Made by a program: the position numbers and the translations under genes. A DNA stretch of 64,000 bases from Crambe crambe (lineage: Eukaryota; Porifera; Demospongiae; Poecilosclerida; Crambeidae), in contig OZ004583.1 of assembly GCA_963924555.1 (NCBI GenBank), forward strand, positions 8,012,582 through 8,076,581, written 5' to 3'. The notes under the pieces were generated by a model. That model was not told where the DNA came from and ran no database searches. It saw nothing but the letters and a program-made list of their open reading frames with translations. Position 1 is the stretch's first letter. Each line of letters opens with the position of its first letter. This document shows, in pieces, positions 1 through 64,000 of this stretch.

Positions 1-2
1 CA

Positions 3-20304: not shown

Positions 20305-20383
<79 letters not shown>

Positions 20384-26304: not shown

Positions 26305-29694
<3,390 letters not shown>

Positions 29695-29873: not shown

Positions 29874-32800
29874 TTAATTTATTGAAGTGGAGGAATTAGG
29901 GTACATAAATATATTCCCAGTTACATTGTTTCTTTGCACTCCTCCAAAACCACTGTCAGATCTAGCTGGTGAATTTGACGGACGCTGCTCACTGGAACTA
30001 GCTTGAGATTGCAGTTCTGTATCCTCAGATGTATTCGTCTGGAAGACATTAGCCTCTCCTTCTGTGTGGTGTCCACTGACTTCAACCACCGTGACTGACC
30101 TAGACAGACTTGGCATATATGTGTTCTGATCTTCAGCACGAGAGAGCAATGCTTCAAAGTCATTTTCAAACTCTTTCTTTTTATCTATAATCATTCTTGG
30201 TGCCTTGCCATATATCGTTGGATTAGATTGACTCACCACATCACTTGATTCATCATCAGAGAGAGACTGGTATCCATTATACCTTATTTTCTTCATTAGT
30301 ATTTTCTTTAACTTGATGTAAGCATTCTTTATCTTTTCGTGATGCTTTCGAGTCACATTCCAAATGATGTAGGACACCATGTATATCACTGGTAGGAAGA
30401 CCAAGAAATATTGAAAAACTATCGCTACTCGAGATGGTGGCAAGTTAGGATTGAGTTTTGTGAAGGAATACAAGTAGATGCTGACTGAGTTTAGCAGAGC
30501 AAGGTTTGTGAAGATGAGAATATCAACATAATTGAGCAACTTCCATTCATAAGGTTGACAAAGAGCAAGCAGAGCTATCATGGCAGTTGTGGCTATTTGC
30601 TGGACTACAAATTGCTGTAACCAAGTGTCTGTGACGATGTACGATATGTTGATGACGAATCGAAAGAAGAAATACAATCCTGCGAAAAACCGCATTTTAT
30701 CTCGGTAGCATCCTTGAAACATGTTGAGGAAAAGATGGACTTTATCAATGGGATAGAATCGTTTCAGGCACCCTACTTTCAGTATGCACCACTCCAATGC
30801 CTTGAGTGGGTAATCTAGTAGGACTAAAGGAGTAAAAGTGACAAAGGTCACGAGCACAACCACAGCAGGAATGTAGTATACTAAGTACTCCTTATCGGTA
30901 ACTCGATACTGAGAAGCATAATACACTCGAGAAGCTGAGAGCTGGTTACCATGGGAGGTGATAGGGTGCTGGTCGTTTAGTATATAAGAAGAGGTTGTGC
31001 TAAACTTCATATAAGAAAGCAGTAGAAATGAAGCAAAAGCCGGAAGAAGGGCATCACTGATTTTCTTCTGTCTGTTCTTTCTTGACAAAACGGATGCAAG
31101 GCGAGATATTGATAAGAGTCGTCTTCTGCTCTTCACACTCAGAAATCTGTTATTCATACAACAACGCTCACTGATTTTGAGACAGATTACGACAATGATG
31201 ATCATGAAGAGAGGAAACAAAGCCACTGCGTATTGGAGAAGAAATATGGAAAGAGTCGTGAACCTGGGATTTGAGGTGAAGCAAAGCGAAGGGATGTAGT
31301 TTTCGATGAACCTGAGATTGAAAATAGCAAAAGGGATTTGATAAGCATTGCTCAACGTTTCTACCAACCCTCCGTCTGCATTGAGATTAAATGTACTTGT
31401 CACTAACTGGCAGTAGAGAATGAAGGCATTTGCTGGTCCTGTGGTGAGACGAATGTCAAATATGATTAGAATAGTGAAGAGAATAGCCAATGGTAAGTAC
31501 ACTGAAGCTATGTATATGACAATATTAGCGGCCAAGTTGATGTCAGTACAATTAATGCATTCATATGTCAGGGAATTGATGGCTGGTCCGAAACCTGGGA
31601 TACACTCTGCACAGTTAATGCCTGTACGATTGGTGCTACCACAGATGAGCTCATCAAAGTCCACCTCTTGTACAGATTTATTATACAGAACATCAATGTA
31701 TCTTTTGCTCAAGGTATTTCGGCAAAACCGCAAGGGACAATCCATTACATAATAATTATCATCTGTTTGATCATTTAAGCGACCGAACCACATTCCATTC
31801 AGGATTTGTATTCTTTTCGAAGTATCATCACACAATATTGCTCCACCATACGAACCTGAACAGACACACTGGATATCACTTGCGTTGGTAGCATTACTTG
31901 GTGCGAAACCAGGAGGACAGTCTTTCAATTCCACGAGGAGATCAAACTGCCATATTCGGCTTCCTAAGCTTTCGAGCTGCAATTCTATTGCAGTATTCGG
32001 CTCTCCATTCACTGTCACTGCTTCCATGTTATTTATGGCGACATTCATAGTATCATTGTATGTGATTGTGAAGGATTGACCGGTAATCTCATTGTTCAGG
32101 TCATCCTCCAGGGTTATTGGCAAGACAAATGGCCATCCAGAATAAACCCCAATGTTGTTATTGTTATCCTTATATGTAAGGTTTCCAATATCTGAAGTAA
32201 CGTCAGCTTTGCAGTGGAGTGGATGTTCAGTATAGTACCAACCCTTCCAGCAAAATATCCGAGATGGGCCATTTTCTATCCCATCTCCGTCAACCGAACA
32301 AGGAAGAATGGATGTGGAATGGATAGCATTGATGTTGTTCCCAGCTTGGTCGTAGTTATATACGAAGAAAAAGGTCACGTTCCATTGATCAGGGTGTAGG
32401 AAAGGATTGCTGTGTCGTATGAAACAGTTACTATCAGACTTCAGGTTCTCCCTCCCAAGGTAGGTGTTATAAATTGCTCCCCCTTCCACTGTAGCAATAT
32501 TGTGGTCGAACCATAACCACGTCCCGTAACTAACTTGTATATAAGCCGCCCCGAGCAGTGCAATGGCAGCTCCCTTGTCTCCTTTATTTCTAGAGAAAAA
32601 GGCACGGCAGGAATTGAAACTTACCACCGAACCTATCACAGAGATTGCAGACCCCACATTATCCTCGAATGTGAAGTTCCCTCTGAACCAGACGGGAACT
32701 TCGTTAATGTGAACTGCTCCGATACCCAATTGATGGGGAACATCAACTTTTCCGATGTGGTAAATGTAATTGACGGTGTTTTCTCTGATTGAGCAACTCT

Positions 32801-34097
32801 CAAGCACCACGTCCATCATCGATCCTTGCAAAAAGTTCCCAAAACGATCAATATCGATAGCTGAACCGACTTTGGCTATATTTCGTTCAAATCCACAACG
32901 TAGAATCTGCACTAGTGCCACCTTTTCCAGCGGGGTAATTTGTAAAGCTGGAGATATTGACACACCTCCTCCGTGCAGTGCTGAATTTTCCGTAAAATTA
33001 CAATTTTCAACGATTATTTTATTTCTTTGGGATGAAACAGGAATCGTATCATTCAACCCATAGACATAAAGGCCAATTCTCATTCCTCCACCTGCAGTGC
33101 CACTGTTAATGGTATAGGTACACTCATTACTGATGAAATGGCTTCCATTAACTGCAATGTTGTTACTGTTTGCACTGTCGTGAAACTCTACAAATAATCC
33201 ACCACCCCAGAGTGCTTCGTTGCCTTCAAATATACAGTTTTCTATCACAAAATTGATGTTGGAACCAGGACCCTTAATGAACAGGGACAAACCTCCCCCT
33301 CGGCCGAAAGCTTCGTGGTCTTCATGATGAGGGATAAGGAACGTAGAATTTTCTACAGTGTCCATATTATCAGCTCGATTGTGACTAAAGGTACATGAGA
33401 AAAAGGTGTACGAGGCCCCGTTGCTTCTCTCACTGCTGGTGGGAGTGGGACATGGTAATGGTTCTCCAGGTTTGCAATAGGTGAACTCCACGTAAAAACC
33501 CCCTCCTCCAGGGAAGACTTTGTCGTTCTCTTCCACACTGTTGTCAGAGAAGATGGAGTGGGTAATGGTGTTGGTCCCGTTGGTGTCATAGACCACAACA
33601 CCCGTAGCATTGGGGCTATGGCTCACTTCAACACAGGACATGTTGATACTTTCACAAGAGTAGAAATACAGAGCCACTCTGAACAGACTACTACTGCCAT
33701 TTCTGTTCTTGCTGGTACTGTTGCGAACTGCAGCACAATTCTGGAAGGTGATGTTGGAAAAGGTTATATCTTTGACGTTGATGAATGCCAGTCCAGTGTC
33801 CTCTGTTTGGGTGCAGTCCACTGTAGAACCTGCTCCAGTGAAAGCCAGGAAGGTGAGATCCTGGAAGGGGGGTGTGGGGTCCGTCAAGAAGTGTATCCCT
33901 GGAGAGAGGACATACTGAGTAGAGTTTCTGCGATATTGTGGTTGAAAGGCCCAGCTCAGGTCTCGACAGGGGACTTGGGAAGAGAGACATTCATCACTGT
34001 TTTCTCCAGTTGAAGGATCGATGCGGATGACTCTATCGTAGTCAGCAGCGATGCTGACTATTAGTGCGCAAGCGAAGAAAGCATGAATGAGTGACAT
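29874..34097 (-). CDS. Beta-helix multi-pass receptor-like protein (paralogue 2)
   Basis: 1407 residues in one exon, starting MSLIHAFFACALIVSIAA, a signal peptide. Residues about 25-650 are repeats with short hydrophobic strands ending in Asn ladders (DITFSNITFQNC, FVIENCIFEGN, GGGLFVEFHD), typical of a right-handed parallel beta-helix, with many N-glycosylation sequons. A Cys-rich stalk follows (CPPGF; then TGINCAECIPGFGPAINS). About eight membrane segments begin at NIVIYIASVYLPLAILFTIL. The tail has ALLSRAEDQNTY, SVTVVEVSG and DSGFG. The N-terminal part shares 177 identical bases with paralogue 5, although the rest is well diverged. A polyadenylation signal (AATAAA, minus strand, 29878-29883) overlaps the last codons. 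A GCGCATGCG palindrome lies about 110 bp upstream of the ATG. Function unknown. Confidence 0.9.
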   Translation of the reverse strand: MSLIHAFFACALIVSIAADYDRVIRIDPSTGENSDECLSSQVPCRDLSWAFQPQYRRNSTQYVLSPGIHFLTDPTPPFQDLTFLAFTGAGSTVDCTQTEDTGLAFINVKDITFSNITFQNCAAVRNSTSKNRNGSSSLFRVALYFYSCESINMSCVEVSHSPNATGVVVYDTNGTNTITHSIFSDNSVEENDKVFPGGGGFYVEFTYCKPGEPLPCPTPTSSERSNGASYTFFSCTFSHNRADNMDTVENSTFLIPHHEDHEAFGRGGGLSLFIKGPGSNINFVIENCIFEGNEALWGGGLFVEFHDSANSNNIAVNGSHFISNECTYTINSGTAGGGMRIGLYVYGLNDTIPVSSQRNKIIVENCNFTENSALHGGGVSISPALQITPLEKVALVQILRCGFERNIAKVGSAIDIDRFGNFLQGSMMDVVLESCSIRENTVNYIYHIGKVDVPHQLGIGAVHINEVPVWFRGNFTFEDNVGSAISVIGSVVSFNSCRAFFSRNKGDKGAAIALLGAAYIQVSYGTWLWFDHNIATVEGGAIYNTYLGRENLKSDSNCFIRHSNPFLHPDQWNVTFFFVYNYDQAGNNINAIHSTSILPCSVDGDGIENGPSRIFCWKGWYYTEHPLHCKADVTSDIGNLTYKDNNNNIGVYSGWPFVLPITLEDDLNNEITGQSFTITYNDTMNVAINNMEAVTVNGEPNTAIELQLESLGSRIWQFDLLVELKDCPPGFAPSNATNASDIQCVCSGSYGGAILCDDTSKRIQILNGMWFGRLNDQTDDNYYVMDCPLRFCRNTLSKRYIDVLYNKSVQEVDFDELICGSTNRTGINCAECIPGFGPAINSLTYECINCTDINLAANIVIYIASVYLPLAILFTILIIFDIRLTTGPANAFILYCQLVTSTFNLNADGGLVETLSNAYQIPFAIFNLRFIENYIPSLCFTSNPRFTTLSIFLLQYAVALFPLFMIIIVVICLKISERCCMNNRFLSVKSRRRLLSISRLASVLSRKNRQKKISDALLPAFASFLLLSYMKFSTTSSYILNDQHPITSHGNQLSASRVYYASQYRVTDKEYLVYYIPAVVVLVTFVTFTPLVLLDYPLKALEWCILKVGCLKRFYPIDKVHLFLNMFQGCYRDKMRFFAGLYFFFRFVINISYIVTDTWLQQFVVQQIATTAMIALLALCQPYEWKLLNYVDILIFTNLALLNSVSIYLYSFTKLNPNLPPSRVAIVFQYFLVFLPVIYMVSYIIWNVTRKHHEKIKNAYIKLKKILMKKIRYNGYQSLSDDESSDVVSQSNPTIYGKAPRMIIDKKKEFENDFEALLSRAEDQNTYMPSLSRSVTVVEVSGHHTEGEANVFQTNTSEDTELQSQASSSEQRPSNSPARSDSGFGGVQRNNVTGNIFMYPNSSTSIN

Positions 34098-34208
34098 ACT
34101 TAGTAACCTTTACTGTTGCTGCACAGTTCGAGGGAGTGGCTGGTTATTATAATTTTGCACGTGATCGACATGTGTGGTAGGCGTGGTCCAACCGCCCACT
34201 ATTAGGTA

Positions 34209-34219
34209 TGCGCATGCGT
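34209..34219. promoter_or_regulatory. NRF1-like palindrome (TGCGCATGCGT)
   Basis: One mismatch from the NRF1 consensus TGCGCATGCGC. It lies 112 bp upstream of the ATG of paralogue 2, a plausible core promoter position. Confidence 0.5.
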
Positions 34220-34437
34220 ACAGGCGATATATATTATATCATCTTTTAAAATAAAATCTAAATTAATAAAAATTGTAGCTAGCTAATTGAGTGCAATATA
34301 TCATCTTTAAAATAAAATCTTGCAGCTAGCTAATTGAGTGCAAGAAGTCAGAAGTGGATTCCTAGTCAAGTCACCACAAGAGGAAAATGTGATTTAATAA
34401 GCTGGTTTTATTAATCTACTCACCATGTAGCAAGCAT

Positions 34438-35713
34438 CTACCGGCCCAGACCACAATTTAACCTGTTGTATTTGGGCCGGCAAGTGCGGGGAAATGGTCT
34501 CTCTTTCTCCCCAAGCCTTAACCAATGGTGTGCCCGGAGGTCAGCAATGCCTGGTCTTGTTTCAGGGTTCTCCCTCAGGATAAACTTTACAAATTGTTTG
34601 GTGGCTATAATATGTGCAGTGTACCATGATATAGAGCTAGAAGTGGCTACACATGAAATTTCTCACTTACCTGGATTCACATGCATTGGATAGTCAAATG
34701 CCCTCTGAAGCCGTGAGGGGTTAGAAGAAAGAACATAATTGGGTAATTCTCCACTTAGCATCACATAGAGAACTATACCACTGCAAAGTAATGGCTATAA
34801 CAATAATTATTATAGCTAACTGAGATGTTTACAATTTTCATTTTCGTTGTTACAGCTTACTTGTAATTATCATTTTGTACAAGGTAATTTTTTTTATTGT
34901 CTTGAACATGACCACGAAAATAGATTATGAGTTATGCGATTAAGGTACAGTATATTAGGCTACTATGCTTCATATAGTGTATTTAATTTGACTTACAGAC
35001 TCCAAACATCAGCTTTTTTCACATTTTGTAGTGTTTGGTGGTGGCTCATTATCTCTGGAGCCATGTATGCTCTCGTACCTACTTCGGCATCCAGTGATTG
35101 AGCAATGTTCAAGTTGACTGCCAGCTCAAAATCTGTATATATATAGTTATACAGATAAAAGTTAAATAATTATAGCTTAGATTATCACATAAATTTACCT
35201 CCAATCTTGACTTGCATTTGGCTATCAATCAATATATTGCTGCACTTGATGTCTCTGTGCACAATCCCTTCCTGATGACAGTAATTGATTGCTGAGCACA
35301 ACCGAGAAAACAAGTAGCAACATTCCTCGACTGAAAAATACCCATGATTGCTGATATATTCCCAGAGATCCCCATTCTCTGCCAGCTCCATCATCAGGAA
35401 GAAGTGGTGATCTGTTTCCAATACCGCATTGATATGAATTATATTCTGATGCTCCTGCAGCATTAACGTAATGTCCTTTTCTTGGCTTGATTTTGCAATT
35501 GTCTTTATAGCAATCTATTGAAGATTAAACAATAAATGAATTGGTTACAGCTTTAAGACTTACCATCATCCTATTACATGGACACCATGCTGCCCTCACA
35601 AGTCCAAATCCTCCTTCTCCGGCTCCAGCTCCCAAAACAGAACCCATTTGATAGCCAAAATCTTGGGGCCCAGGAACACGACCTGTTGCATTCCTTCGTG
35701 TTCTTCTTGCCAT
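34438..35713 (-). CDS. Small Ser/Thr protein kinase, TSSK/CAMK-like, with DFE in place of DFG
   Basis: Five exons: 35564-35713, 35199-35514, 34997-35132, 34671-34780, 34438-34604. All have GT-AG ends and the phases join, giving 292 residues. It starts MARRTRRNATG and is almost only a kinase domain. The glycine loop is GAGAGEGGFGLV and the catalytic lysine is in IAIKTIAK. The catalytic loop is IVHRDIKCSN. The metal-binding motif is KIGDFELAV, so the DFG glycine is Glu, and the codon is split by an intron. YMAPEI follows, then DVWSLGIVLYVMLSGELP, a CAMK-type segment. Testis-specific kinases also lack a DFG glycine (DFS), which with the small size suggests a TSSK relative. The gene is divergent from paralogue 3, with only 173 bp between start codons. 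Confidence 0.82.
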
Positions 35714-35886
35714 GATAATGATAAAGATAATGAAGAAAAAATCTTAGAAATGATGTGCTTGATCAACAGCTACAACTAATCAAGTCCTGTCACAGATTGC
35801 CCATATGGCCATGCGCACGCACGTCGTTCAATTGCGCATGCGCTTCTTATACAATGCTGAGCGAGCAATTAAAAAATAGAGCGAAG
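35714..35886. promoter_or_regulatory. Bidirectional promoter with a perfect NRF1-type palindrome
   Basis: The 173 bp between the kinase ATG (35713, minus) and the receptor ATG (35887, plus) contain TGCGCATGCGC at 35833-35843 and ATGCGCACGCACG at about 35812. The short spacing and the palindrome suggest shared regulation of both genes. Confidence 0.6.
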
Positions 35887-38800
35887 ATGTGTATTACGCT
35901 TTTTATCTTTTTGTCCGGCATAGCGAGCGGAGGAACTCACCTCCATAACATCTTCACTGACCCAGTCAATGGAACGGATTCTCCAGAATGTCTGACTTTT
36001 AATTCTTCAGCTACTCCTTGCCTGACTCTCGATCATGCCTTCAGTTATCGAAATGACTCCACCTGCTACATCCTCAATCCTCACACTGAATACAACCTCA
36101 CAGAACCAGTTCCTCCTTTCAAAGGCTTGAAGTCTCTCATGATACGTGGAGGAGAGGGATCTGTTGTCTCATGTGGTGGAGAAGTTGGATTGGCTTTTGT
36201 TAATGTATCGACTATAGACATCATGGATGTAACCTTCTTGTACTGTGCTGAATCAAGAAACAGCACAAGCAGAAATTTAACCATTTATCCTGAGGTATCC
36301 TTCTATGATGTTGAAGTTGGCCTTTATTTTTACCTGTGTGAAGATGTCAGCATGGATAAAGTGAATGTTAGTTTCAGTCCTAATGCTACAGGTGTAGTCA
36401 TGTACAACACAGCAGGGACCAATTCTATCCTGAACAGTGTGTTTATGAATAATACTGTGTCCAATACTCAGTATGGTGGTGGTGGTTTTTATGTGGAATT
36501 CTCATACTGTGTTCCAGGAGACTATGCATGCAGTGATAATGAAACCAAAGCAGCTCCTATCCTTGGTGCACATTACTCCTTCATGAACTCAATGTTTTTA
36601 AATAATATTGCCAGTAACGATGAACTAGGAGAAAACACCACCTATATTATCCCATACAGAACTTACCACCAGGCTTTCGGTCGAGGTGGAGGGTTATCCA
36701 TTTTCATGAAAGGTGCTGCTATGAATAACGTCTTTGAGATCTCAAACTGTACTTTTGAGAACAACAGGGCACTGTGGGGTGGAGGACTCTTTGTAGAATT
36801 CCATGATGACACAGCTAATAACTCTGTGTATGTCACAGACTGCACTTTGAGTGATAACCACTGTGAATACACCCTAACTACTGGAACAGGAGGTGGCGGA
36901 ATGAGACTGGGACATTATGTCTATGGAGAACCAAATTCAAGTCGTGGCAATTACATAGAATTAGCCCATTGCAGGTTGATGTTTAACTCTGCAATGTATG
37001 GAGGTGGTCTATCACTATCACCAACTCTACAGGACACTATCAAGGGCAAGGAAGCATCTCTGAGACTAGTAGATGTAAATTTTTGGAATAACACGGGAAA
37101 ACTCGGGAGTGGCTTGAATCTAGGTGCATTTCCTCTGATTACAAAAGGCATCATGATGAATGTGAAGATATTGAACTGCTCTTTTGAGAATAATAGTGTG
37201 GCGTATGCAGATCTACTCAATAGGGCCCATTCTCCACACACCATAGGGATAGGTGCTGTCTATATCAATCGTGTTGATGTAGCCGTCGAAGGAGAAACTC
37301 TTTTTGAAAATAATATCGGCACAGCCCTGGCTCTTGCCGGATCAGCAGTTAACTTCAGTCAAAGTGATGTAAAGTTTGCTTATAACACTGGCTATAGAGG
37401 TGGGGCTATTTCTCTACTCGGTTCCTCCTACATCCTGATCAATGAAGACACTCGCATGTTGTTTGATAGCAATATGGCAACTGAAAGAGGGGGTGCTATT
37501 TACACCAGGTACATTGAACTGGACAACTTGAAGACGGGACCAAACTGCTTTGTAAGACACACTGACCCCTTTCGCAGCCCTGACAAATGGGAGGCCACTT
37601 TTACCTTCCATAACAACACAGATCAAAATGCTCAAAGAGATAACTCCATTCACACTTCGTCCCTCCTCCCATGCGCGTGGGCTGGAGGAAGTGGTTATGG
37701 AAGTATCAAACGTGTATTCTGCTGGAAGAATTGGACATATTACACGAATACTTTACAAGAAGCCGATTGCCCTAAGCAAATAACATCTGAAGCAGGTGAT
37801 GTCATATGGACAGATTCAAATAGCAAGTTCGTTATTCCTGGTCGACAGTTTGCACTGCCTCTTTCTATCAAGAATGATTATAACGACAGTATCAAGGATG
37901 ATACTGTTTTCAGTTCAATTCTTAACGTTAGTGATAGTGGGACTACCTATTTTTGGGGAGGTAACACAAGTGTGAGTGGACCAGAAAGGTCATATGTTGA
38001 ACTCACTCTTAATACTCTTGGAGATCGAATATGGGAAATGAAATTTGTAGTCGAGCTTATTCAGTGTCCCCCGGGATTTAAGCCAACCAAAGGAAATGGA
38101 AATAAAACTGTGTGTGAATGTTCACCTTCCATGTATGGTGGGAGGGTGTTATGCAACCTAAATACATTGAAGGTTAGAATGGATGTTAACTACTGGATGG
38201 GGTTTTCAGAAGATGAAGGTGAATATTTGGTGGGTTCATGTCCCCCTGGTTTCTGTGCATCCAGTGATGCTTCTTCTTACATCTTTCTGCCCAATACCTC
38301 TGCAGCATTGAGTGGTGTAGTATGCAATACCAACAGGACGGGGGTAATGTGTGGTGAATGCACTAATGGTTCAGGACCTGCTGTCAATTCTGCAACCTTT
38401 GACTGTGTGTGGTGTGATGATACAAAAGTACATAAAAACATCATCACATATCTAGCTTCCATCTACGTCCCTCTAGCTGCTTTATTTACCCTCCTCATTG
38501 TATTTGACATTCGTCTCACCACAGGACCAGCCAATGCCTTCATCATCTACAGCCAAGTAATCTCAAGTACTTTTATAGATGGCCAAAATTTTATTAATAC
38601 ACCCTCTAATAATAATATAAGCAATTATGACTCTGTGGCCAAAGTTTACAAAATGATTTACGGGTTGTTCAACCTCGAGTTTATTGAAAATCTGCTTGAG
38701 CCATTTTGCTTGCACTCAGAGTTCAATGCACTGACTGTTCTATCACTGGATTATGGAGTGGCACTGTTCCCCCTAATCATCATAACTTTGATTCTTATTC

Positions 38801-39924
38801 ACTTTAAGTTGAAAGAGTGCTGTCCTATTTCCATAAAACCTGAACGTCTTAAGAGAATCCGTGCTTTTAAATGCTGGAGACGAAGAAGTATCTCTGAAAC
38901 ACTGCTCCCAGCCTTTGCAGGATTCATCCTGCTCTCCTACACCAAGTTCTGTCTCACTTCATCCCTCATCTTTGCAGCACAATCTCTGATATGCGAAAAT
39001 GGATCTGATTCTCCTTCAAAAATATCACAAGTTTATTATGCAGGAAAGTTTGATACAACCAATCCTGAGTATGTATATTCATACTTACTACCGTCTACTC
39101 TAATCTTTGCCATATTTGTATGTATCCCTCCACTACTTCTCTTGGTTTATCCACTGAAGATCTTTGAGTGGTGTCTTTCTAAAGTCACCTGCTTGTGGAA
39201 GTTCTATCCTGTCGACAAGGTTCATGTGTTTCTGGACACTTTCCAAGGCTGTTATAAGAATAACATGCGTTTCTTTGCCGGACTATACTTCCTCTTCCGT
39301 TTGGTCATCAGCTCATTTTATTTTGCACATTTCAGCTGGTTGGAGAAGTTTGTGGGTCAACAGATCATTTGCATCGCCATGGTCACTCTAGTCTCGACTT
39401 GTCAGCCATACAACGCTGAAAACAGATTTCTAAACTACATCGATCCTCTAATCTTCACCAACTTAGCAGTCATCAATGCTCTTAGTCTTTTATTCTACAC
39501 CTTATCTTTGATCAATCAACAGCTCCCTCCATTTGCTCTTGTCTTTCAACAGATTCTCATCTTTCTCCCTCTGGTTTATATGATAGGATATATCATATGG
39601 TACTTTTTATTCTTCCGTTTTAAGTGTCTCAAGAAACGGGAAAAGGAATCAGATCTCATTGATAACAACAACGATGAAGAAACGGAGAGAGCACATACAA
39701 GGTCAGAGATAGAAGAAGATGAAGCTTTGTTTGCCCGGGCTGAGTTGAGCAACCACTATCAGAAACCACGTGATCATTATGATAGTTTTGCTCATATCCA
39801 TGATTCCAACCGAATAACCGATTCTGAGAGGAGGAAAGGCGAAAAGACAGATGCCAGAAGCTCACAGATGATTGATTCTCATTATGGGACTATGTCATCC
39901 ATCACAACACAAAGTTCAATGTGA
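35887..39924 (+). CDS. Beta-helix multi-pass receptor-like protein (paralogue 3)
   Basis: 1345 residues in one exon. I chose the ATG at 35887 because MCITLFIFLSGIASGG is a signal peptide. The frame is open further up to 35755, but that part overlaps the promoter palindrome. The ectodomain has beta-helix-like repeats (VFEISNCTFENNRALWGGGL and others), then a Cys-rich stalk (CPPGFKPT; TGVMCGECTNGSGPAVNS). About eight membrane segments follow, with RLTTGPANAFIIY and FLDTFQGCYKNNMRFFAGLY. The tail has ALFARAELSNHY and SHYGTMSS. It is the most divergent of the four complete members, and the parent or closest relative of the pseudogene at 54247-54690. Divergent from the TSSK-like kinase. Confidence 0.9.
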   Translation: MCITLFIFLSGIASGGTHLHNIFTDPVNGTDSPECLTFNSSATPCLTLDHAFSYRNDSTCYILNPHTEYNLTEPVPPFKGLKSLMIRGGEGSVVSCGGEVGLAFVNVSTIDIMDVTFLYCAESRNSTSRNLTIYPEVSFYDVEVGLYFYLCEDVSMDKVNVSFSPNATGVVMYNTAGTNSILNSVFMNNTVSNTQYGGGGFYVEFSYCVPGDYACSDNETKAAPILGAHYSFMNSMFLNNIASNDELGENTTYIIPYRTYHQAFGRGGGLSIFMKGAAMNNVFEISNCTFENNRALWGGGLFVEFHDDTANNSVYVTDCTLSDNHCEYTLTTGTGGGGMRLGHYVYGEPNSSRGNYIELAHCRLMFNSAMYGGGLSLSPTLQDTIKGKEASLRLVDVNFWNNTGKLGSGLNLGAFPLITKGIMMNVKILNCSFENNSVAYADLLNRAHSPHTIGIGAVYINRVDVAVEGETLFENNIGTALALAGSAVNFSQSDVKFAYNTGYRGGAISLLGSSYILINEDTRMLFDSNMATERGGAIYTRYIELDNLKTGPNCFVRHTDPFRSPDKWEATFTFHNNTDQNAQRDNSIHTSSLLPCAWAGGSGYGSIKRVFCWKNWTYYTNTLQEADCPKQITSEAGDVIWTDSNSKFVIPGRQFALPLSIKNDYNDSIKDDTVFSSILNVSDSGTTYFWGGNTSVSGPERSYVELTLNTLGDRIWEMKFVVELIQCPPGFKPTKGNGNKTVCECSPSMYGGRVLCNLNTLKVRMDVNYWMGFSEDEGEYLVGSCPPGFCASSDASSYIFLPNTSAALSGVVCNTNRTGVMCGECTNGSGPAVNSATFDCVWCDDTKVHKNIITYLASIYVPLAALFTLLIVFDIRLTTGPANAFIIYSQVISSTFIDGQNFINTPSNNNISNYDSVAKVYKMIYGLFNLEFIENLLEPFCLHSEFNALTVLSLDYGVALFPLIIITLILIHFKLKECCPISIKPERLKRIRAFKCWRRRSISETLLPAFAGFILLSYTKFCLTSSLIFAAQSLICENGSDSPSKISQVYYAGKFDTTNPEYVYSYLLPSTLIFAIFVCIPPLLLLVYPLKIFEWCLSKVTCLWKFYPVDKVHVFLDTFQGCYKNNMRFFAGLYFLFRLVISSFYFAHFSWLEKFVGQQIICIAMVTLVSTCQPYNAENRFLNYIDPLIFTNLAVINALSLLFYTLSLINQQLPPFALVFQQILIFLPLVYMIGYIIWYFLFFRFKCLKKREKESDLIDNNNDEETERAHTRSEIEEDEALFARAELSNHYQKPRDHYDSFAHIHDSNRITDSERRKGEKTDARSSQMIDSHYGTMSSITTQSSM

Positions 39925-45490: not shown

Positions 45491-45622
45491 AAAAAAAAGA
45501 GTTTTAAAAAATTTGGACATACTGTTGTTTTTTTGTTTGTTTCTTTTGGACTAATTTGTGCCTGTAGAACAGTAGCAGATATGATTTTACACTGTATGCT
45601 AATTTGTCAATAAATAAATTTA

Positions 45623-45634
45623 TGCGCATGCGCA
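45623..45634. promoter_or_regulatory. Perfect NRF1-type palindrome at the SENP8 start
   Basis: TGCGCATGCGCA is a perfect match to the NRF1 consensus, 24 bp before the chosen SENP8 ATG. It contains two in-frame ATGs (45622, 45628). As these sit in a promoter element, the ATG at 45658 is the better start. Confidence 0.6.
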
Positions 45635-45657
45635 ATAGTCTCAACGACCTTTACCCG

Positions 45658-47592
45658 ATGTCTGGAGGAGAGGATCACACTACTCTTAGTTTCCACGACA
45701 GCCTACTGAAGGCTTCAGACATAGCCCTGCTGAGTGAATCTAACTGGCTCAATGACAAGATCATAGGATTTTACTTCGAGTGAGTGAAGCATAAAATGCC
45801 TGTGTCCATGTTGAATATTGACAAACAAATAAAAAACAGACAGCATCATGCTTCCACTACTTCAACCCTTGTTTCTTTACTTTTGGTGCATTCATAATGA
45901 TTAGTCAATCCTATATAATCATCTAATTTCTTTACCTTCTGACCAACTGTTTTTCTGCTCTGTTTTGGTGTGCCTAGATATTTGGAGTATGTGACATTTA
46001 GAGATTATTCCAGTCAAGTGTGCTTTATCACACCAGACGTCACTCAGTTCATCAAGCTGTACCAAGGTAGGTGACTAATTCATCTCCTAGTTCTTGACTT
46101 CAAGATTTATGCTGATCAGGAATTTAGTCTATTTGCATGCACCTGACACCTATAACTGCTATAACTTTCCCAATATTTCAATTTAAAAAAGCTAGCTCAT
46201 AGAGTTGGTGATCAGCTCTCTGCTAGTAGGTCAAGAAATTTGAGAAAGTTGCTCTCTGTCTTCATTCTTCGATACAGGTTGTGAATTAGGAATTTTTCTT
46301 GGCCCGCTGAACTTGCATGAGAAGGACCTCATCCTCCTTGCCATTAATGACAACTCTTCTGAAAGAGCTGGAGGTTCTCACTGGTAAGGTTTGTTAATAA
46401 TTACGTCAGTAGCTACAGAAAGCCCATGTTCACCTTGTGTATTAGCAAGCCCATATGTAGCACTTCACCTTATGTATTGGTGTGTAGCACTTCATCTTAT
46501 GTATTAGCAAGCCCCATGTGAAGTTATGTATTAGCAAGCCCATGTGACCTTATACATTAGCAAGCCCCATGTGACCTTATACATTAGCAAGCCCCATGTG
46601 AAGTACTTCACCTTATACATTAGCAAGCCCCATGTGAAGTTATGTATTAGCAAGCCCATGTGACCTTATACATTAGCAAGCCCCATGTGACCTTATACAT
46701 TAGCAAGCCCCATGTGAAGTACTTCACCTTATACATTAGCAAGCCTTATAGAGAAAATGTGTACAGTGCAACCTGTCTACAGCAACCACCTCTAGGCCAC
46801 AAAAAAAGTGAGGTGGTCTCTAGCTATGTGCTGTACGGAGGTCAAAATCAATTGAAATGGCACTTTTGGAACACACTTACTGTATATTTTGCTGCTGTTG
46901 CAAGTAATGTTGTACTCATTGGATAGAACCTGCAAGCTGATGCATTGCACAAAATTAACCACCCACCACCTAATCAGATAGTGCCACACACAAAAAAACA
47001 CGTAAATCTCGTTTGCAATTTTATAATTCAGACTTCTTTACGAACTGGTAGGAGTTTGTTGACGTACAGTAGAAGAGACAACATTTATAGACATTATGAT
47101 TCGAGCAGACCCACTAACTCCAGTGCAGCCCATCAGTGTTCTCTGCAATTGACACCCTTCATCAAAGGTATGTATACATGACTATATATACACACATGGA
47201 ATATGAAGAAGCACACATTAGAAGTGCCTGACTTATGGTACATCGTTGTTTTTTTTTAGCTTCACTTCAGCCAAAGTATCGAGAAGTAGAAAATTGTCCA
47301 CAGCAGGAAAATTGTAAGTTCAGTAGGACCTAAGCGTTACGTCAATGATAGACCTGGAGAGTGCAGTGTGTCATGAAATGTTATTAGTATCTATAAGTTA
47401 TGACATTAGGTTTTCTTTGCAGGTAGTGACTGTGGTGTGTATGCCATGTGTTTTGCCAGAGCAATATGCACACGAGAACTAACAGGAGAGGATGGGAACA
47501 AGCTCATGGACATTGGACCAGAGGACACTAAGACTTGGAGATCACATGTTCAATCATTGATCTCATCACTAGCTAAAGGGGAAGTATTATGA
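45658..47592 (+). CDS. SENP8: SENP8/DEN1 (NEDP1) NEDD8-specific protease
   Basis: Exons: 45658-45779, 45978-46066, 46278-46383, 47052-47167, 47260-47313, 47423-47592. All junctions are GT-AG and frames join, giving 218 residues against about 212 in human. C48-family cysteine protease. The substrate-cleft motif is SNWLNDKIIGFYFEYLE. The catalytic His is in AGGSHW, the Asp in YRHYDSS and the Cys in NCSDCGVYAM, so the triad is complete. Known role: matures pro-NEDD8 and removes NEDD8 from cullins and other proteins. The gene sits between two convergent receptor paralogues that form an inverted repeat. Intron 3 carries a minisatellite. The start at 45658 is preferred over in-frame ATGs at 45622 and 45628, which lie in an NRF1-type palindrome. 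Confidence 0.95.
46490..46750. repeat. Higher-order minisatellite in SENP8 intron 3
   Basis: Units of about 27-35 bp (TTATACATTAGCAAGCCCCA then TGTGACC or TGTGAAG) are arranged in a 117-bp higher-order period, seen by comparing 46503 with 46620. Confidence 0.85.
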
Positions 47593-47657
47593 GCTGTATA
47601 ACAAGTTGACTAATTATTTCATCCACTCAGTCTAGTGGAACTGGATATACGTAGCTA

Positions 47658-47792
47658 CTTGGGACCCAGCTTCTCGTCCTTTATGGAGTTATTTTAGTAT
47701 AGAGTGTATATACAAAAGGTACTTTTAGATTGTCCTTTGTTGAGAGGTTTATCTTCTTTCAGAATGTCTTTTGTCGGAGGTTCCACTGTATA
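47658..47792 (+). repeat. Dispersed repeat family, copy B
   Basis: ACTTGGGACCCAGCTTCTCG, GTATATACAAAAGGTAC, TTGTCCTTTGTTGAGAGGTT and TCGGAGGTTCCACTGTATA match copy C (58865-59035, minus) in order, and copy A in part. It ends at the GGTTCCACTGTA terminus common to the family. Confidence 0.65.
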
Positions 47793-47939
47793 GACAAATC
47801 CTGTCATTCCAGTTATTCTGGTTAGCGATGTGGTGGAGTGGGAGGACATGGTGCCATAGCCAGGACAGTTGATTCTAGAGTGCCATTTGATATTAGTCAG
47901 TGGTTGACTGCTACCTGTTTTCTTGCCACTTCCCGTGGT

Positions 47940-48090
47940 GAGCCACTTCCCCTCCCAGAACTACTTGAGAGCCACTTCCCCGCTACTGGCGGTGATGGTG
48001 GTTGTGTGAGAGCCACTTCCCCTCCTGGAGCTACTGGCAGTGATGGTGGTTGTGTGAGAGCCACTTCCCCTTCCAGAGCTACTGGTGATG
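47940..48090. repeat. Short tandem repeat, about 45-bp units
   Basis: GAGCCACTTCCCCTCC, GAGCTACTGG and GATGGTGGTTGTGTGA recur about three times with small differences. Confidence 0.8.
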
Positions 48091-48230
48091 GTTACATATG
48101 AGAGTGATGGACTGCCACAACCCTTGTGCATGCGCTGCAGGGTTAAACACTCATAACTACTACATAGCTCAACTGCTACAGACACAATAGGTAGAATTAG
48201 TTTCAAAACAGTAGCTATATTTAAGCTTCT

Positions 48231-51200
48231 TTAATAGGTTCTATCAGTTAAAGGATTTCCAGATCCATAATTAGATGCTCCTGTGCTCCCATACGTAATC
48301 ACCACACCAAAAGTGCCTTCACTCTTCTGAGATTTGGGACCCGAGTCAGCCTTTCCTATTATGGTGGACATCTGACGAACACTAGCCTCTCCCTCGCATA
48401 CGATACCCACACCTACCACTGTAACTGGCAGAGCACTATAGATGTTTGGTTCTTTTGCCCTTTCAAACATGACTTCATCGTGATCCATTGGCTTTTCATG
48501 GGTAGTGGTTGATACATTATTTTCTGCCACAGTATTGAGTTGCTTATATTGAGACTTCAGTGGTGAAAAACACTGAGTAATAGCGAGGGAGAACCTCAAA
48601 ACCTTTTCTTTGATCTTTCTGTGATGTCTTTTAGTCACTCGCCACAATATATACGTTAGCATGTAAACCAGAGGCAGGACAATCAGAATATATTGAATGA
48701 TGAAGATTGACAATGAAGGTTTGAGCTCGGGATAGATATTAAAAAATACAAAGAAGTAGAAGCTTAGACAGTTAATGAGAGCAAGATCCGTAAAGATAAG
48801 AATATCGACATAATTCAAGAACTTTTGTCTGTATGGACGATATAGAGCAAGTAATGTCACCATTACTGTGCATAGAACTTGCTGAAAGACAAATTGGTCT
48901 ATCCACTTATAAAAAAAATTGTACGATACATTCACAGCCACTCGAAAGAGAAAATACAGACCAGCAAAGAAACGTACGTCCTTTCTATAACAACCTTGGA
49001 AAGTATCCAATAGAATATGGATCTTATCTGCTGGGTACATCTTTTTGAGCAGGTCAAACTTCACAATGATCCATTCGAGCCCCCTCAAGGGAAAATCCAG
49101 CAACATTAAAGGTGTGATACAGAGAAAAGTGCAATAGACAAGAATAGCAAGCAAGTAGTAAGGTAGATATTCGCTACTCTCCCTGGAATACTGACCTGCA
49201 AAGTATACACGAGGTGACATCTGCTCAGTTCCATTTTCATCTATAAGTGGAACTGTGGTTAAGATATACGAAGAAACAGTGCTCAGTTTCGTGTACGAAA
49301 GTAAAATAAAAGAAGCAAATGCTGGAAGAAGAGCTTCATTGATTCTACGTCCTCTTCTCTGCATGAGGTTTGCCGCTGTGATTTGTTGTCTGCCGCAGCA
49401 GAAACACTCTTTGATTTTCAAACAAATTAACACCAGAAGGATCATTAGCAAAGGAGATAAAGCTACGCAATAGTCAAGCAATAGAACTGAGAGAGTGTTA
49501 AAACTGGTCGAGAAGCAAATATTTGGGATATAATTCTCCAAAAAATCTAGGTTGAAAATGCCATAGGGTAGAGTATAGAACTCTGAGAGGTAGTGGTAAT
49601 GATCAATGAATTCCCTCAGAGGTGTGTCTCCATCAGCATCAATAGTAAAAGTTGTGACGATTATCTGACAGTAGAGGATGAAGGCATTGGCAGGTCCGGT
49701 GGTGAGGCGGATATCGAAAAAAATGAGAACAGTGAATAGAAATCCTAATGGTAAGTAGATAGAAGCGATATATTTGGCTATATTTGCAGCCAAGTTTATA
49801 TCTGTACAAGGAATGCAGTCATATGTTGGAGAATTGACAGCAGGTCCTGTACCGTTAATGCATTCTCCACATAGCCTACCAGTCCTGTGAGGTTCGCAAA
49901 TCCTTTCAGTCATCTCTTCGATGCTGTGAGGGAGTGGAAAGTACCTCACCCTCTGTTTCTTGCAGTATTTGGGAGGACAAGATGAGACATAGTATGAGCC
50001 GTTGAAGAAACCTATCCATTTATTAGCCAACAGCCTTGCCTCTTTTGCACGATTATCACAATGCATCATACTGCCATAGCTATTGGCACATTGGCATTCT
50101 CCGTTCTTGATTTTAAAACAAGGTGGACATAACTGAAGCTTCACAACCAAATCAAAATACCAAATACGATCTCCAGACGTTTCCACCATCATATTAGTGG
50201 TTACATTCTCAAGTCCTCGGACTGTGGCATTCTTTCCCCAGAAGAACAAGATTTTCCTGGGGTCAGCATGACCTGTCTGATTGGTATAGGAAGTGAGAAC
50301 AACATGCCGACTAACGTCAGTATTCAAGTCATCTTTAATTGACATGGGCATGGCGAAATCCCACCCTGGAATGGCTTTCACAGTGTTGTCGTTCTCATTG
50401 TTGAATTCGATCTTACCAACATCAGATATGATGTATGGACCGCAATCACTTGATACATCATCAAAAGAAGTATTGTAGTAGTGCCAGCCTTTCCAGCACA
50501 AGAGAGCACTGCCAGTTTTATTACTTCTTATTCCACTCCCACCTATCACAGAACAGGGTAAAATGGACGTAGCAAAGATGGCATTTTGTGAAGCAATGTG
50601 GTCTGTATTATTGATAAATCGCATTGTGACATTCCAATCGTCAGGGTGAATCGCTGGATCCACATACCTGACAAAGCAGTTAGCATCCGTTTCTAAGTTT
50701 TCTCTAGATATGTAAGTGGCATGTATCGCTCCCCCTTGAGTCTTAACAACATTATTCTCAAAAAGTATGTCTGTCCCCGGTCCGAGCTCAATAGTGCTTG
50801 CTCCAAGTAATACAATCCCAGCTCCTTTATTAGCTGTGCCATTGATAAACTGGACATGGCAACCATCAAAATTCACACTACCCCCAGACACCGAGAGGGC
50901 TGATCCGTGGTTGTTGGTGAATGTCACATTCTTGCGAAACATCACGTTGCTGGAAGTGACACAAACGGTTCCAATTCCAATCTGGAATGGAGAAGAACTG
51001 CTAGGGATTTTATGGTAATAGTCAATAGTGTTGTTATCAAATGTGCAGCCCTCGATCAAAAACGTTGCCTCCAATCCCTCAGAAACTTTCCAGAACTGAC
51101 TGATATGCACTGCTGCTCCTAGCTTGGCAGTGTTTGTTTGAAAGAAAGACCTGAGGATAGAAATACGTGCAGTTTGACTCAAGTCCGATTTTTGCAAAGC

Positions 51201-52373
51201 CCAAGAGATGGAAACCCCAGCTCCATTAAGAGCCGAATTCTCCATGAAAGTACAGCTGTCCATGGAAATTTCATTCCTAGCTATCAGGTAGAGTGGGTCA
51301 TCGTTTCCATAGACATAATGGGCAATTCGTATAGCCCCTCCCCCAGTACCACCATCGATAGTAAAGGGACAGCTATTATTAGTGAATTCTGTTCCTGAAA
51401 CTGTGATTTTACTCCCATGCACATTGTCATAAGGTGCGACAAAAAGCCCACCACCCCATACAGCAACATTGTGTTCAAATGTGCTGTTTTCGACTACGAA
51501 TGTGATGTTGCTTGCTTTACCCCTGATGAACAGAGATAGGCCTCCCCCATGACCAAATGCTTGATGGTCGACTTTATATGGGAAGATGTAGGTGGATTTT
51601 TCTTTAGTGTCCATATTATCAGCTTGATTGTGACTGAAGTTACAGAAGGAAAAGGTGTACAAAGCCCCGCTGTTCCTCTCACTGGTGGGAGTGGTACATG
51701 ATAAAACTCCAGGTTTGCAATAGGTGAACTCAACATAAAAACCCCCTCCTCCAGGGAAGACTTTGTCGTTCTCTTCCACGCTGTTGTTGGAGAAGATGGA
51801 GTGGGAAATGGTGTTGGTCCCGTTGGTGTTATAGACCATAACACCTGTAGCATTGGGGCTATGGCTCACTCCAACATGGGACATGTTGATACTTTCGCAA
51901 GAGTAGAAATACAGAGCCACTTTGAACAGACTAGTACCGCCATTTTCATAATCCTTGCTGGTACTGTTGCGAACTGCAGCACAATTCTGGAAGGTGATGT
52001 TGGAAAAGGTTATATCTTTGACGTTGATGAATGCCAGTCCAGTGTCCTCTGTTTGGGTGCAGTCCACTGTAGAACCTGCTCCAGTGAAAGCCAGGAAGGT
52101 GAGATCCTGGAAGGGGGGTGTGGGGTCCGTTAGAAAGTGTGTCCCTGGGGAAAGGACATACTGAGTGGAGTTTTTACGATGTTGTGGTTGAAAGGCCCAG
52201 CTCAGGTTATAACAGGGGACTTGGGCAGAGAAATAGCCATCGTTGTTCTCTCCAGTTGAAGAATTGATACAAATGACATTGTCATAAACCAGTATCGATC
52301 TTGAGGAAGGTTCTCCCAAGAAGCCCAGAGAAACCACCAGTAAGAAGAGCAGATAATGATTACAATGCGCCAT
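48231..52373 (-). CDS. Beta-helix multi-pass receptor-like protein (paralogue 5)
   Basis: 1380 residues from the ATG at 52373 (MAHCNHYLLFLLVVSLGFLG, aligned to the start of paralogue 4). An ATG three codons upstream is also in frame. The architecture matches paralogue 4 throughout: beta-helix ectodomain, CPPCF (a Gly-to-Cys change in the usual CPPGF), TGRLCGECINGTGPAVNS, eight membrane segments, VMFERAKEPNIY, and VITYGSTGAS in the tail. It is inverted relative to paralogue 4 with SENP8 between them, so the two genes are convergent. The frame is intact, so both copies look functional. Bases 51954-52130 are identical to 33708-33884 in paralogue 2. Function unknown. Confidence 0.9.
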   Translation of the reverse strand: MAHCNHYLLFLLVVSLGFLGEPSSRSILVYDNVICINSSTGENNDGYFSAQVPCYNLSWAFQPQHRKNSTQYVLSPGTHFLTDPTPPFQDLTFLAFTGAGSTVDCTQTEDTGLAFINVKDITFSNITFQNCAAVRNSTSKDYENGGTSLFKVALYFYSCESINMSHVGVSHSPNATGVMVYNTNGTNTISHSIFSNNSVEENDKVFPGGGGFYVEFTYCKPGVLSCTTPTSERNSGALYTFSFCNFSHNQADNMDTKEKSTYIFPYKVDHQAFGHGGGLSLFIRGKASNITFVVENSTFEHNVAVWGGGLFVAPYDNVHGSKITVSGTEFTNNSCPFTIDGGTGGGAIRIAHYVYGNDDPLYLIARNEISMDSCTFMENSALNGAGVSISWALQKSDLSQTARISILRSFFQTNTAKLGAAVHISQFWKVSEGLEATFLIEGCTFDNNTIDYYHKIPSSSSPFQIGIGTVCVTSSNVMFRKNVTFTNNHGSALSVSGGSVNFDGCHVQFINGTANKGAGIVLLGASTIELGPGTDILFENNVVKTQGGAIHATYISRENLETDANCFVRYVDPAIHPDDWNVTMRFINNTDHIASQNAIFATSILPCSVIGGSGIRSNKTGSALLCWKGWHYYNTSFDDVSSDCGPYIISDVGKIEFNNENDNTVKAIPGWDFAMPMSIKDDLNTDVSRHVVLTSYTNQTGHADPRKILFFWGKNATVRGLENVTTNMMVETSGDRIWYFDLVVKLQLCPPCFKIKNGECQCANSYGSMMHCDNRAKEARLLANKWIGFFNGSYYVSSCPPKYCKKQRVRYFPLPHSIEEMTERICEPHRTGRLCGECINGTGPAVNSPTYDCIPCTDINLAANIAKYIASIYLPLGFLFTVLIFFDIRLTTGPANAFILYCQIIVTTFTIDADGDTPLREFIDHYHYLSEFYTLPYGIFNLDFLENYIPNICFSTSFNTLSVLLLDYCVALSPLLMILLVLICLKIKECFCCGRQQITAANLMQRRGRRINEALLPAFASFILLSYTKLSTVSSYILTTVPLIDENGTEQMSPRVYFAGQYSRESSEYLPYYLLAILVYCTFLCITPLMLLDFPLRGLEWIIVKFDLLKKMYPADKIHILLDTFQGCYRKDVRFFAGLYFLFRVAVNVSYNFFYKWIDQFVFQQVLCTVMVTLLALYRPYRQKFLNYVDILIFTDLALINCLSFYFFVFFNIYPELKPSLSIFIIQYILIVLPLVYMLTYILWRVTKRHHRKIKEKVLRFSLAITQCFSPLKSQYKQLNTVAENNVSTTTHEKPMDHDEVMFERAKEPNIYSALPVTVVGVGIVCEGEASVRQMSTIIGKADSGPKSQKSEGTFGVVITYGSTGASNYGSGNPLTDRTY

Positions 52374-52689
52374 GTGTTGCAACAGATAATACAGAGCTCA
52401 CTGTCAAAGTTTCACTTTCAGCTAGTCTCGTAGAGCTGCAAAACTTACCACTGAAAGGCTGCTATAAAATAAAGGAGTTGATTTTAATTTTAATGATTAT
52501 CATAAATTATTATAGCAATGACACGTAGGAAATGGGTTGCAGAAAAGAAAAGAAAGAAAGAAAACTAGGCTGAGGGTCGACCAGGACTGGCCTGGCGACA
52601 GGAGGAGATTAAGTTGTTTGCTAAAGCTAGTATTAAGACACTTGCTAGTTAGCGCTAAACTAAAGCCACATCTACGCCACCTGACTTAC

Positions 52690-52737
52690 CCGCAAGAACG
52701 AATTCAGAAGGATCAAGGAGCTGCCTTTCTCGGGCGC
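52690..52737 (-). other. Probable non-coding 5' leader exon of paralogue 5
   Basis: The minus strand reads GAGAAAGGCAGCTCCTTG, then TTCTTGCGG and the donor GTAAGTCAGGTGG, matching the leader exon of paralogue 4 at 40485-40532. Confidence 0.6.
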
Positions 52738-52755
52738 TAGGCTAATAATAATGCG

Positions 52756-53816
52756 GCCGTGAATTTTGTCCCCCCCGGACAATATTCATAGGTAGGAAAA
52801 TAATTATTTAATTTAATAAAATATTAGCCATAAATAATGCCAGTACTTGGAATGAGAAAAAACACATTTAGCAGGTGGCACAATTAAAAGAGATCCTCTG
52901 TTTCATTCCAAATCTGAATGGAGACAATTAAGTTCCAAGAAGTGTTAAGAATAATTTTATACTCAGAGCTTATTATGGATCTGTTATTTTTATTATTACT
53001 AACAAAAAACCTGCATATAGCTTAACTTAGGCACCGTATAATGAAGTCCTCGAGCATGATGGATAAAGAATATGTGTATTTGCCCATAGGATCACTATTT
53101 TGAATTGGTTGTTTGCTTAATCACACCTCATCTGCATGCATAACTTATTATATCATCAAGAGCTAATGGAACAAATCTGTGCTCTGATGCTTGGGAGCTT
53201 ACTCTGAACTTCAAAAAGGAGGTGATTGTTCACAGCATCTCTTTGCACTGGATTTGATCCAGCTGACTTACTTACAGTACAATCAAAATCTTTTCCGCAG
53301 TCACAGCCTATTTTATATTGCATTGAAAAGAAATATCTCACTCCAAAAATGTCTAAATTCAAATAAGCAGAACATTTCACTTTACTGTGTCTGCAGGGAA
53401 GAAGTGTGATAAATGTGATGAGTGGTTTCACAATGAATGATTGTGTCAAACTACCAATAGTGTGAAGTGGCTCCGCCCTAAGTGCAAGTAACTATCACAG
53501 CTGTCATGGATACTGATTACTCTAATGCTCCGATTATCAACTGTCTATAATAATCTATGTTTAAGCTTACTTATTAATTAGCATAGTTCATCTTGATGAG
53601 CTGCATTATAGTATAGGAAGATGCCTTAGCAAAAAACTGAGCTAGCTGAACTATATTAATTTTGAGGGAAGACAAAATTTATTGAGTTGAAAAACGTCCT
53701 GGGGAGACACTATTCAACATTATTCACCAATGAAAATAGTCTGGAGCTGGGGGGACACTATTCACTAGTGAAAATTGTCCGGGGGGACATTAAATTTTGT
53801 CCAGGGAACATTTCAT
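52756..53816. mobile_element. Possible non-autonomous element bounded by inverted GTCCGGGGGGAC-type ends
   Basis: ATTTTGTCCCCCCCGGACAA at about 52757 is the reverse complement of TTGTCCGGGGGGACATTAAA at about 53775, near the other edge of a 1-kb block. The right edge carries additional degenerate copies of the end (53690-53816). No transposase frame is present. The boundaries and class are uncertain. Confidence 0.35.
53395..53491 (+). pseudogene. PHD-finger remnant
   Basis: After a splice-acceptor-like CTGTGTCTGCAG, the plus strand encodes KKCDKCDEWFHNE, a stop (TGA), then LCQTTNSVKWLRPKCK. The spacing (CxxC, CDEWFH, then W and C) is that of the second half of a PHD finger. The in-frame stop, and a missing partner Cys near the end (RPKC for CPKC), mark it as broken. 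Probably a relic of a transposon-borne or duplicated PHD gene. Confidence 0.55.
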
Positions 53817-53817
53817 A

Positions 53818-53838
53818 GGGGGGGGGGGGGGGGGGGGG
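53818..53838. repeat. Homopolymer G tract
   Basis: About 21 G bases at the right edge of the possible mobile element. Confidence 0.9.
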
Positions 53839-54246
53839 ACTAAATACACTATGACACCAGTGTCATCATCCTAGTCAGAAATGCTACAGTATACTCATAA
53901 TCTTGTTGCATTCTCATTAATTTTTTTAAAGAATAATGAGTAAAATATTGGGAATAATTATGTTAGTGCTTAAAAATAATAGTAACTAACATCAGAGAAT
54001 AGAATAATAGGGAAAAATTTTAGCATAATTTATTCAACCCTAATGACATCGACACTGTCAACAAAACCAGTATTTTTGCTTTTGTTCTTTCCTTAATCAG
54101 GAGATAGTTATGAAAGTAGCTATTGAACATGTATTTTGCTGGAATAGCTGATTTTCAGGTTCTGAAGCAGGAAATATCAAACATTTATAGCTAGCTATAC
54201 TACCAACCACATACAAGTGGTTCCCGGTAAGACCTTTACACTATCT

Positions 54247-54690
54247 CTCAGTCTTCAATTCCATTCCTGACATAGCAAGTAGTGAGACGGTCTATTTTTG
54301 GGGAAGTAACACTAGTGTGGGTGCACCAGAAAGATCACATGTTGAACTCACTCTTAATACTCTTGGAGTTCGAATATGGCAGGTTGCCTGAGAAGGAAAA
54401 GGCATTGATTGATTCACACTGTGTGTGAGTGTTCAACCACTATAGAGTATTGTGGGCAACCCTGATACATTGGAGGTTAGAATGTTTGTTAATCATTGGA
54501 TGGCCTGGGGGGGTTTGTGTCCCCCTGGTTTCTGCATGTGCATCCAGTGATGCTTCTTACATCTTTCTGCCCAAACATTGAGTGGTGTAGTATGCAATAC
54601 CAACAGGACAGGAGTAATGTGTGGTGAATTCACTGATGGTTCAGGACGACCTGCTGTCAATTCATTGTGTCAACTGTACCAATAATTGAC
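54247..54690 (+). pseudogene. Receptor-family pseudogene fragment (paralogue 3-like)
   Basis: Runs of nucleotide identity to about 37912-38410 of paralogue 3, in the same order: TATTTTTGGGGAAGTAACAC, TTGAACTCACTCTTAATACT, GTGTCCCCCTGGTTTCTG, TGAGTGGTGTAGTATGCAAT and CAGGACCTGCTGTCAATTC-like sequence. Indels and stops (for example a TGA just after the ATATGGCAGGTTGCC segment) break the frame. Only the stalk region is present. It shows that the family undergoes birth and death of copies. Confidence 0.9.
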
Positions 54691-63594: not shown

Positions 63595-64000
63595 AAGGCT
63601 TAGAATGTCCTATTCAAAAGCCTTGGGCTTGGGGGGAAAGCGCGCCCAGTCTCAGGAAATCAAATTTGAATTTCGAAGCAGGAATTAACCTCCTAGACTA
63701 TTCCAGGGACTACGCTACATTAGGGCTGTGACTCTAAACTCTAGAAGAAGTCTCGGAAGTAGACCAAAGCTTTGATACCCCTTCTACATCTCGCAATAAG
63801 GCGCCATAATAAAGAACTCTTTCGTCGCCATTTTTATTTCAAAATTACTATTTTAAAATTATTCATTAAACTCGTTTAAAAAGTATCTTCGTATAATTGA
63901 CAAAACAAGCTCCTCCCCACTTTTCTGGAATGCGCGCATAATAATTTTTTTTTGCGTTTTATAGAAAAAAATGCCTGCCACCTTTTTACTGCTCTGCCTC
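63595..64000 (-). promoter_or_regulatory. Ataxin-7 upstream region
   Basis: Expected to contain the promoter and 5' UTR of ataxin-7. GCGCGCCC lies at about 63639 and a GCGCGC at about 63932. No further motif or gene is recognised before the window ends. Confidence 0.4.

Follow-up and report, generated by a model that had tools for sequence, protein, structure and literature searches.

Among the closest described parallels to the gene family reported here are the large expansions of surface and immune receptors in sponges. In the accessible parts of the respective papers, 296 SRCR genes are given for Amphimedon, with about half of sponge SRCR genes in tandem arrays (PMC10855680), 126 NLRs are given for Dysidea (PMC12909245), and a census by Pfam models of G protein-coupled receptors (GPCRs) lists 220 of them in Amphimedon (PMC4302439). 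The present family was met in a 64-kb stretch of the Crambe crambe genome, called the window below (C5:8012582-8076581, in a genome of 143.1 Mb and 119 contigs). Each of its typical genes encodes, in one exon, a predicted extracellular right-handed beta-helix, a cysteine-rich stalk and a multi-pass membrane core, and we tentatively regard them, with slightly less than even confidence, as a very large family of recognition receptors of the cell surface that grows by tandem duplication. The domains of the SRCR, NLR and GPCR sets were not found in the 33 members scanned (all family scans used HMMER), nor was a 7TM Pfam family among the matches of these members. Alginate epimerases and lyases, tailspikes and pertactin share the right-handed beta-helix with the family but have no multi-pass core, and the family is only about 8-16% identical to such proteins and lacks conserved catalytic-type residues. 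With the chlamydial Pmp proteins it has Pmp-type repeats in common; however, the 10 Pfam families listed include no autotransporter match, the C-terminal portion is hydrophobic and multi-pass, and the proteins are those of an animal. The PANTHER family PTHR11319, "G protein-coupled receptor-related", is presumably the label given to protist and sponge Pmp-repeat multi-pass proteins. No paper on the family was among those listed by literature searches that took in few subscription papers, and the accessible text of a paper on choanoflagellate GPCRs (PMC12716839) does not contain "helix domain", "pectin", "pmp" or "nine transmembrane". Because Pfam GPCR models do not match the core, the GPCR census, as described in the accessible part of PMC4302439, would omit the family.

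The window holds four complete members, the 3' part of a fifth, a pseudogene fragment and the first bases of a further gene, L038, which is followed to the right by another member, L039 (Table 1). This inventory bears out the preliminary description in part. The four complete members are uninterrupted one-exon frames, P0002 being 1345 aa long if its second Met is the start; the fifth, reported as partial at 3-2516, belongs to a complete frame of 1473 aa whose first ~636 codons lie left of the window; and the supposed pseudogene is recognizable as a P0002-like fragment. The accompanying remark that neighboring genes are finely split was overstated, as frames of 693 and 690 aa nearby are also long and uninterrupted. 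P0003 and P0004 are 90.6% identical in protein and 92.4% in DNA, and the window members other than P0002 are 40-43% identical to it. Because homology spans their full length, the window members are, judging from the sequences, related genes and not chance frames.

The family is not confined to the cluster first described. Protein searches of the animal's own genome with the cores of P0005, L070, L069, L068, L072 and L073 gave 691 rows, which merged into at least 512 loci spread over 20 contigs, far beyond the window, and 374 of the 512 lie within 15 kb of another locus. By uninterrupted frame, 247 have at least 1000 codons, 133 have 540-649, 27 have 650-999 and 54 are shorter; stops occur inside the match in 51, in keeping with the earlier picture of a duplicating, receptor-like family with pseudogenes. 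The count is only a lower bound, above all for the short forms, because each search scored just a portion of its candidates and the late searches still brought new loci (82 of 99 from the L072 search and 29 of 122 from the L073 search). A Lincoln-Petersen estimate of ~260 long forms was rejected as a total since the samples were not independent. Length class is not the same as architecture: a 560-codon frame at C6:1139121, with a core 95% identical to that of L068, looks like a truncated long gene. Thirty-five loci beyond the window were read in detail (L038-L073 without L040). The 28 up to L066 comprise 26 long frames of 1191-1463 residues and the partial L058 and L059, and L067, L068, L069 and L073 are long forms as well. 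On the small unplaced contigs C54, C73, C88, C101 and C118 there are likewise family members or hits of the stalk model, and the assembly may therefore misplace or miss some copies. L058, on C101, was considered as an allele, but a DNA search matched only itself and gave no allele pair.

The proposed glycosylated beta-helix ectodomain is supported. A predicted model and structure comparison point to a right-handed beta-helix with three-stranded coils over most of the ectodomain, and Pfam matches to Chlam_PMP and Beta_helix agree with it (19 of the 33 members match Chlam_PMP with E no higher than 0.1). Over residues 26-840, the four complete members together contain 91 N-x-S/T sequons, against a mean of 46.6 and a maximum of 65 in 200 shuffles. 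The solved folds closest to the P0002 helix are mostly carbohydrate-active proteins at about 8-16% identity, many of them polysaccharide lyases, epimerases and depolymerase tailspikes, and this would fit a membrane-bound carbohydrate lyase or epimerase. Such an enzyme seems extremely improbable, however, because no catalytic-type D, E, K, R, H or Y reaches 80% conservation in helix residues 91-620 of the 33 members. In L067 (L067:836-1646), an 81-bp unit is repeated in tandem in ~9.9 copies with 78% match, and its 27 residues correspond to about one helix coil. No such array was seen in the other sequences among the 36 coding sequences checked, and that of L067 could give rise to length differences between individuals.

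The cysteine stalk and the FQGCY..RFFAG motif are conserved among members, as first described. The stalk, which precedes the core, resembles DUF7630 (PF24633), a model of 45 positions and unknown function that matched 19 of 33 cores at E up to 10 (best 2e-5). Its 27-bit cut-off was missed by the window members scanned (P0005 16.4 bits, P0002 13.8 bits) and passed at six loci of the genome, at two of them only with neighboring matches added (the L068 locus has 29.8 bits); most of the 122 matches listed in the genome are weak, and weak matches below the cut-off occurred in 2 of 14 control genomes. As for the core, its multi-pass nature stands, but hydropathy and charge favor nine predicted membrane segments over the eight of the preliminary description or over seven, one of them (segment 2) being weakly hydrophobic. 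The conserved, predicted cytoplasmic stretch between membrane segments 5 and 6 carries the motif FxDxFQGxxKDxxRFFxGLYF with one invariant Arg, and the polar core residues Q901, N940, Y967, Y1029, R1149, N1194, D1197 and N1208 are kept in 88-97% of 33 members. A structure model of the core, built on a five-row alignment of window sequences only, reached a predicted local distance difference test score (pLDDT) of 45, too poor for fold assignment.

Mosaic patterns stand out among copies of the family. In 7 of 18 chosen pairs, all from the window's own cluster, differences at fourfold sites are distributed so unevenly that 0 of 2000 permutations match; one of the remaining pairs stands at 2 of 2000 and ten at 85 or more. 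Between P0001 and P0003, DNA identity is 84-93% over residues 51-250, 77% over 851-900 and 43-69% elsewhere, and the ectodomain tract given in Table 1 is, on this pattern, apparently a gene-conversion or recombination tract. L038 and L039 hardly differ at either end but share only 54-75% over residues 351-800. In L052 and L053 the cores are 99-100% identical and 242 bases of 3' flank do not differ at all, yet the N-terminal 150 residues share 60-67% and the 5' flanks do not match; their permutation test gave 93 of 2000. A coding-only cassette was considered as the duplicated unit, as the blastn match of P0003 and P0004 ends no more than 5 bases from the frame, but it was ruled out by the patchy similarity of their flanks (5' score 49.5 versus a shuffled maximum of 27.5) and by the identical flank of L052 and L053. 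Ordinary recombination or gene conversion probably explains the duplicate boundaries. Elsewhere, two short-form fragments 13.7 kb apart, C12:4498986-4500201 and C12:4512686-4513901, have identical search scores, which points to a segmental duplication of very recent date.

Because the family is large, clustered and recombining and combines a glycosylated ectodomain of a binding type with a conserved multi-pass core, we favor the view that it is an environment-facing set of receptors; this reading rests on anatomy and genome pattern. The glycosylated beta-helix outside the cell would offer a long binding face, which the cysteine-rich stalk would link to the nine-pass core, and the conserved cytoplasmic stretch between membrane segments 5 and 6 together with the tail might relay a signal or drive uptake. 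Separate copies would bind separate ligands from the surroundings; glycans carried by microbes, food particles or neighbors are the most plausible, because the closest solved beta-helices are mostly carbohydrate-active, and new specificities would arise from tandem duplication and segment exchange among neighboring copies.

Gene structure, the minimum size of the family, its clustering, the mosaics and the prevalence of purifying selection are observed directly, the ectodomain fold and the membrane topology are predictions, and ligand binding, signaling or uptake and the environmental role are what we infer. Several observations weigh against the receptor reading. The topology is not clean, as sequons are also present in the tail (8 of 32) and in a pair of presumed inner loops (4 of 33 each). 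The tails contain no common signaling domain, and the core has no known signaling relative; ITIM motifs in the tails (5 of 31, shuffled mean 3.3) are not enriched. Moreover, short forms exist: L070 and L072 have a hydrophobic start, the stalk and the core, but no beta-helix, and the cut L071 resembles them as far as it is readable, so the core must act without the helix. A tree of 34 cores pairs these two short forms, L070 and L072 (100/98), and places them next with the long L051 (97/92) and L050 (91/83), and this grouping with long forms suggests that they were derived by helix loss, although the root is unknown and L070 is a long branch. Alternatively, the core might work as a transporter or channel of TRP-, polycystin- or carrier-like type, with the beta-helix as its ligand-gating or docking cap; the short forms would then be the bare transporter. 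The nine proposed segments with their conserved polar residues would suit this idea, as would the weak NCBIfam matches, at E 0.043 and 0.088, of two single members to models of cation/proton antiporters. Given the core-only genes and a core and an ectodomain conserved to the same degree, it ranks first among the rivals, but we consider it unlikely. A match of the core to a well-described transporter or channel family had been named beforehand as one refutation of the receptor idea, and Pfam, NCBIfam and PDB gave no significant match to the core, including to TRP and other known transporter or channel families, which is a lack of sequence match and not a proof and leaves room for a distant relationship. 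In PDB, P0002 matched nothing by sequence at E up to 1, and the best values were 0.13 with a 33-member profile and 0.1 with the core profile. Among the 33 members, P0001 alone matched Orbivirus NS3, at an E of 0.0028 that does not reach the cut-off, and this was dismissed as chance in a hydrophobic stretch. Nor were confirmed relatives found in viral contigs, prokaryote genome contigs or phage records, mostly non-eukaryotic collections that bear no information on other animals or protists and may lack records close to this genome.

The pattern of divergence also tells against the receptor reading and does not show, family-wide, the variable ectodomain and shared core that had been described. 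Across the 465 pairs that 31 members form (cap and tail had fewer), median identity is 0.293 in the helix, 0.284 in the membrane core and 0.303 in the stalk, compared with 0.228 in the linker, 0.185 in the N-terminal cap and 0.156 in the tail, and helix identity is lower than membrane-core identity in 224 of 465 pairs. In 19 close pairs, which share members and include some saturated dS values, helix dN/dS is 0.14-0.38 and exceeds that of the membrane part in 15. The highest regional dN/dS, 1.34, comes from a short N-terminal stretch of L054/L055 with few changes, and all other defined regional values are below 1; purifying selection prevails. Allorecognition by highly polymorphic self/non-self receptors, as first suggested, would be compatible with a tandem cluster with mosaics but has gained no specific support and appears very improbable, as the ectodomain is not hypervariable relative to the core, selection is purifying, and the loci lie over 20 contigs and not in one complex. 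Purifying selection would fit a structural role, in which the large glycosylated beta-helix attaches to other cells or to the extracellular matrix of the animal itself, with the membrane core as an anchor. Such adhesion or glycocalyx proteins are improbable, though less so than allorecognition receptors, since one pass suffices for an anchor while the family has nine conserved, and hundreds of diverged tandem copies are unusual for structural proteins.

A bolder form of the receptor reading, somewhat unlikely in our judgment, would be that these genes constitute a new superfamily, an intronless germline repertoire for sensing microbes or food with a nine-pass core and an exchangeable beta-helix, and among the animal's largest families. 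Its diversity would come from tandem duplication, segment exchange between neighbors and, at least once, a change in coil number (L067), and its core-only branch would have arisen by helix loss. One uncharacterized membrane family accounts for 380 uninterrupted frames, long or short, in one animal genome, counted as frames in genomic DNA, some of the short ones being truncated long genes. This number exceeds the SRCR, NLR and GPCR sets reported for other sponge species in the accessible parts of the papers cited above. If they are receptors, a count based on known domains has overlooked a large share of the means by which early animals detect microbes, food or each other, and the core may be a signaling or transport fold not yet described.

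Table 1. Coordinates of family members, their parts and neighboring frames in the window
Feature	Position	Strand	Remark
Uninterrupted 690-aa frame	20665-22737		open reading frame
Kinase and Kelch-repeat frame, one exon, 693 aa	23260-25341	-	domain scan
P0005, last 837 residues of one-exon member	1..2516	+	1473 aa in full, start in L040
P0001, complete member, 1407 aa	29874..34097	-	uninterrupted one-exon frame
P0001 tract in the first part of the ectodomain, 88.5% identical to P0003 41393-42151	33270..34031	-	rest far more diverged
P0002, complete member, 1356 aa	35854..39924	+	uninterrupted one-exon frame
P0002 right-handed beta-helix, about residues 50-604	36001..37665	+	predicted model and structure comparison
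P0002 cysteine stalk, residues 738-860	38065..38433	+	DUF7630-like, below cut-off
P0002 membrane core, residues 862-1254	38437..39615	+	nine proposed membrane segments
P0002 cytoplasmic tail (predicted), residues 1255-1356	39616..39921	+	topology prediction
P0003, complete member, 1397 aa	41297..45490	+	uninterrupted one-exon frame
P0004, complete member, 1380 aa	48231..52373	-	inverted near-copy of P0003
Pseudogene fragment (linker and Cys stalk), P0002-like	54248..54682	+	47.6% identical to P0002 residues 684-846
Start of next member L038 (1386 aa)	63971..64000	+	rest right of window

Next to the kinase and Kelch-repeat frame lies a CARD-domain exon at 25753-26196 (-) (E 2.2e-7), which seems to be a separate small gene, with a junction that looks splice-like by eye leading to a short second exon with a stop. 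A SAP-domain frame occupies 27784-28332 (-) (E 2.7e-7). Rfam and tRNA scans of the 64-kb window gave no match. The genome contains 14 Wnt exon matches, five with the 3' part, and there are none in the 14 control genomes; Wnt genes are a hallmark of animals. Short-period simple repeats at 20293-20381 and 26696-26891 of the window are near-identical to each other.
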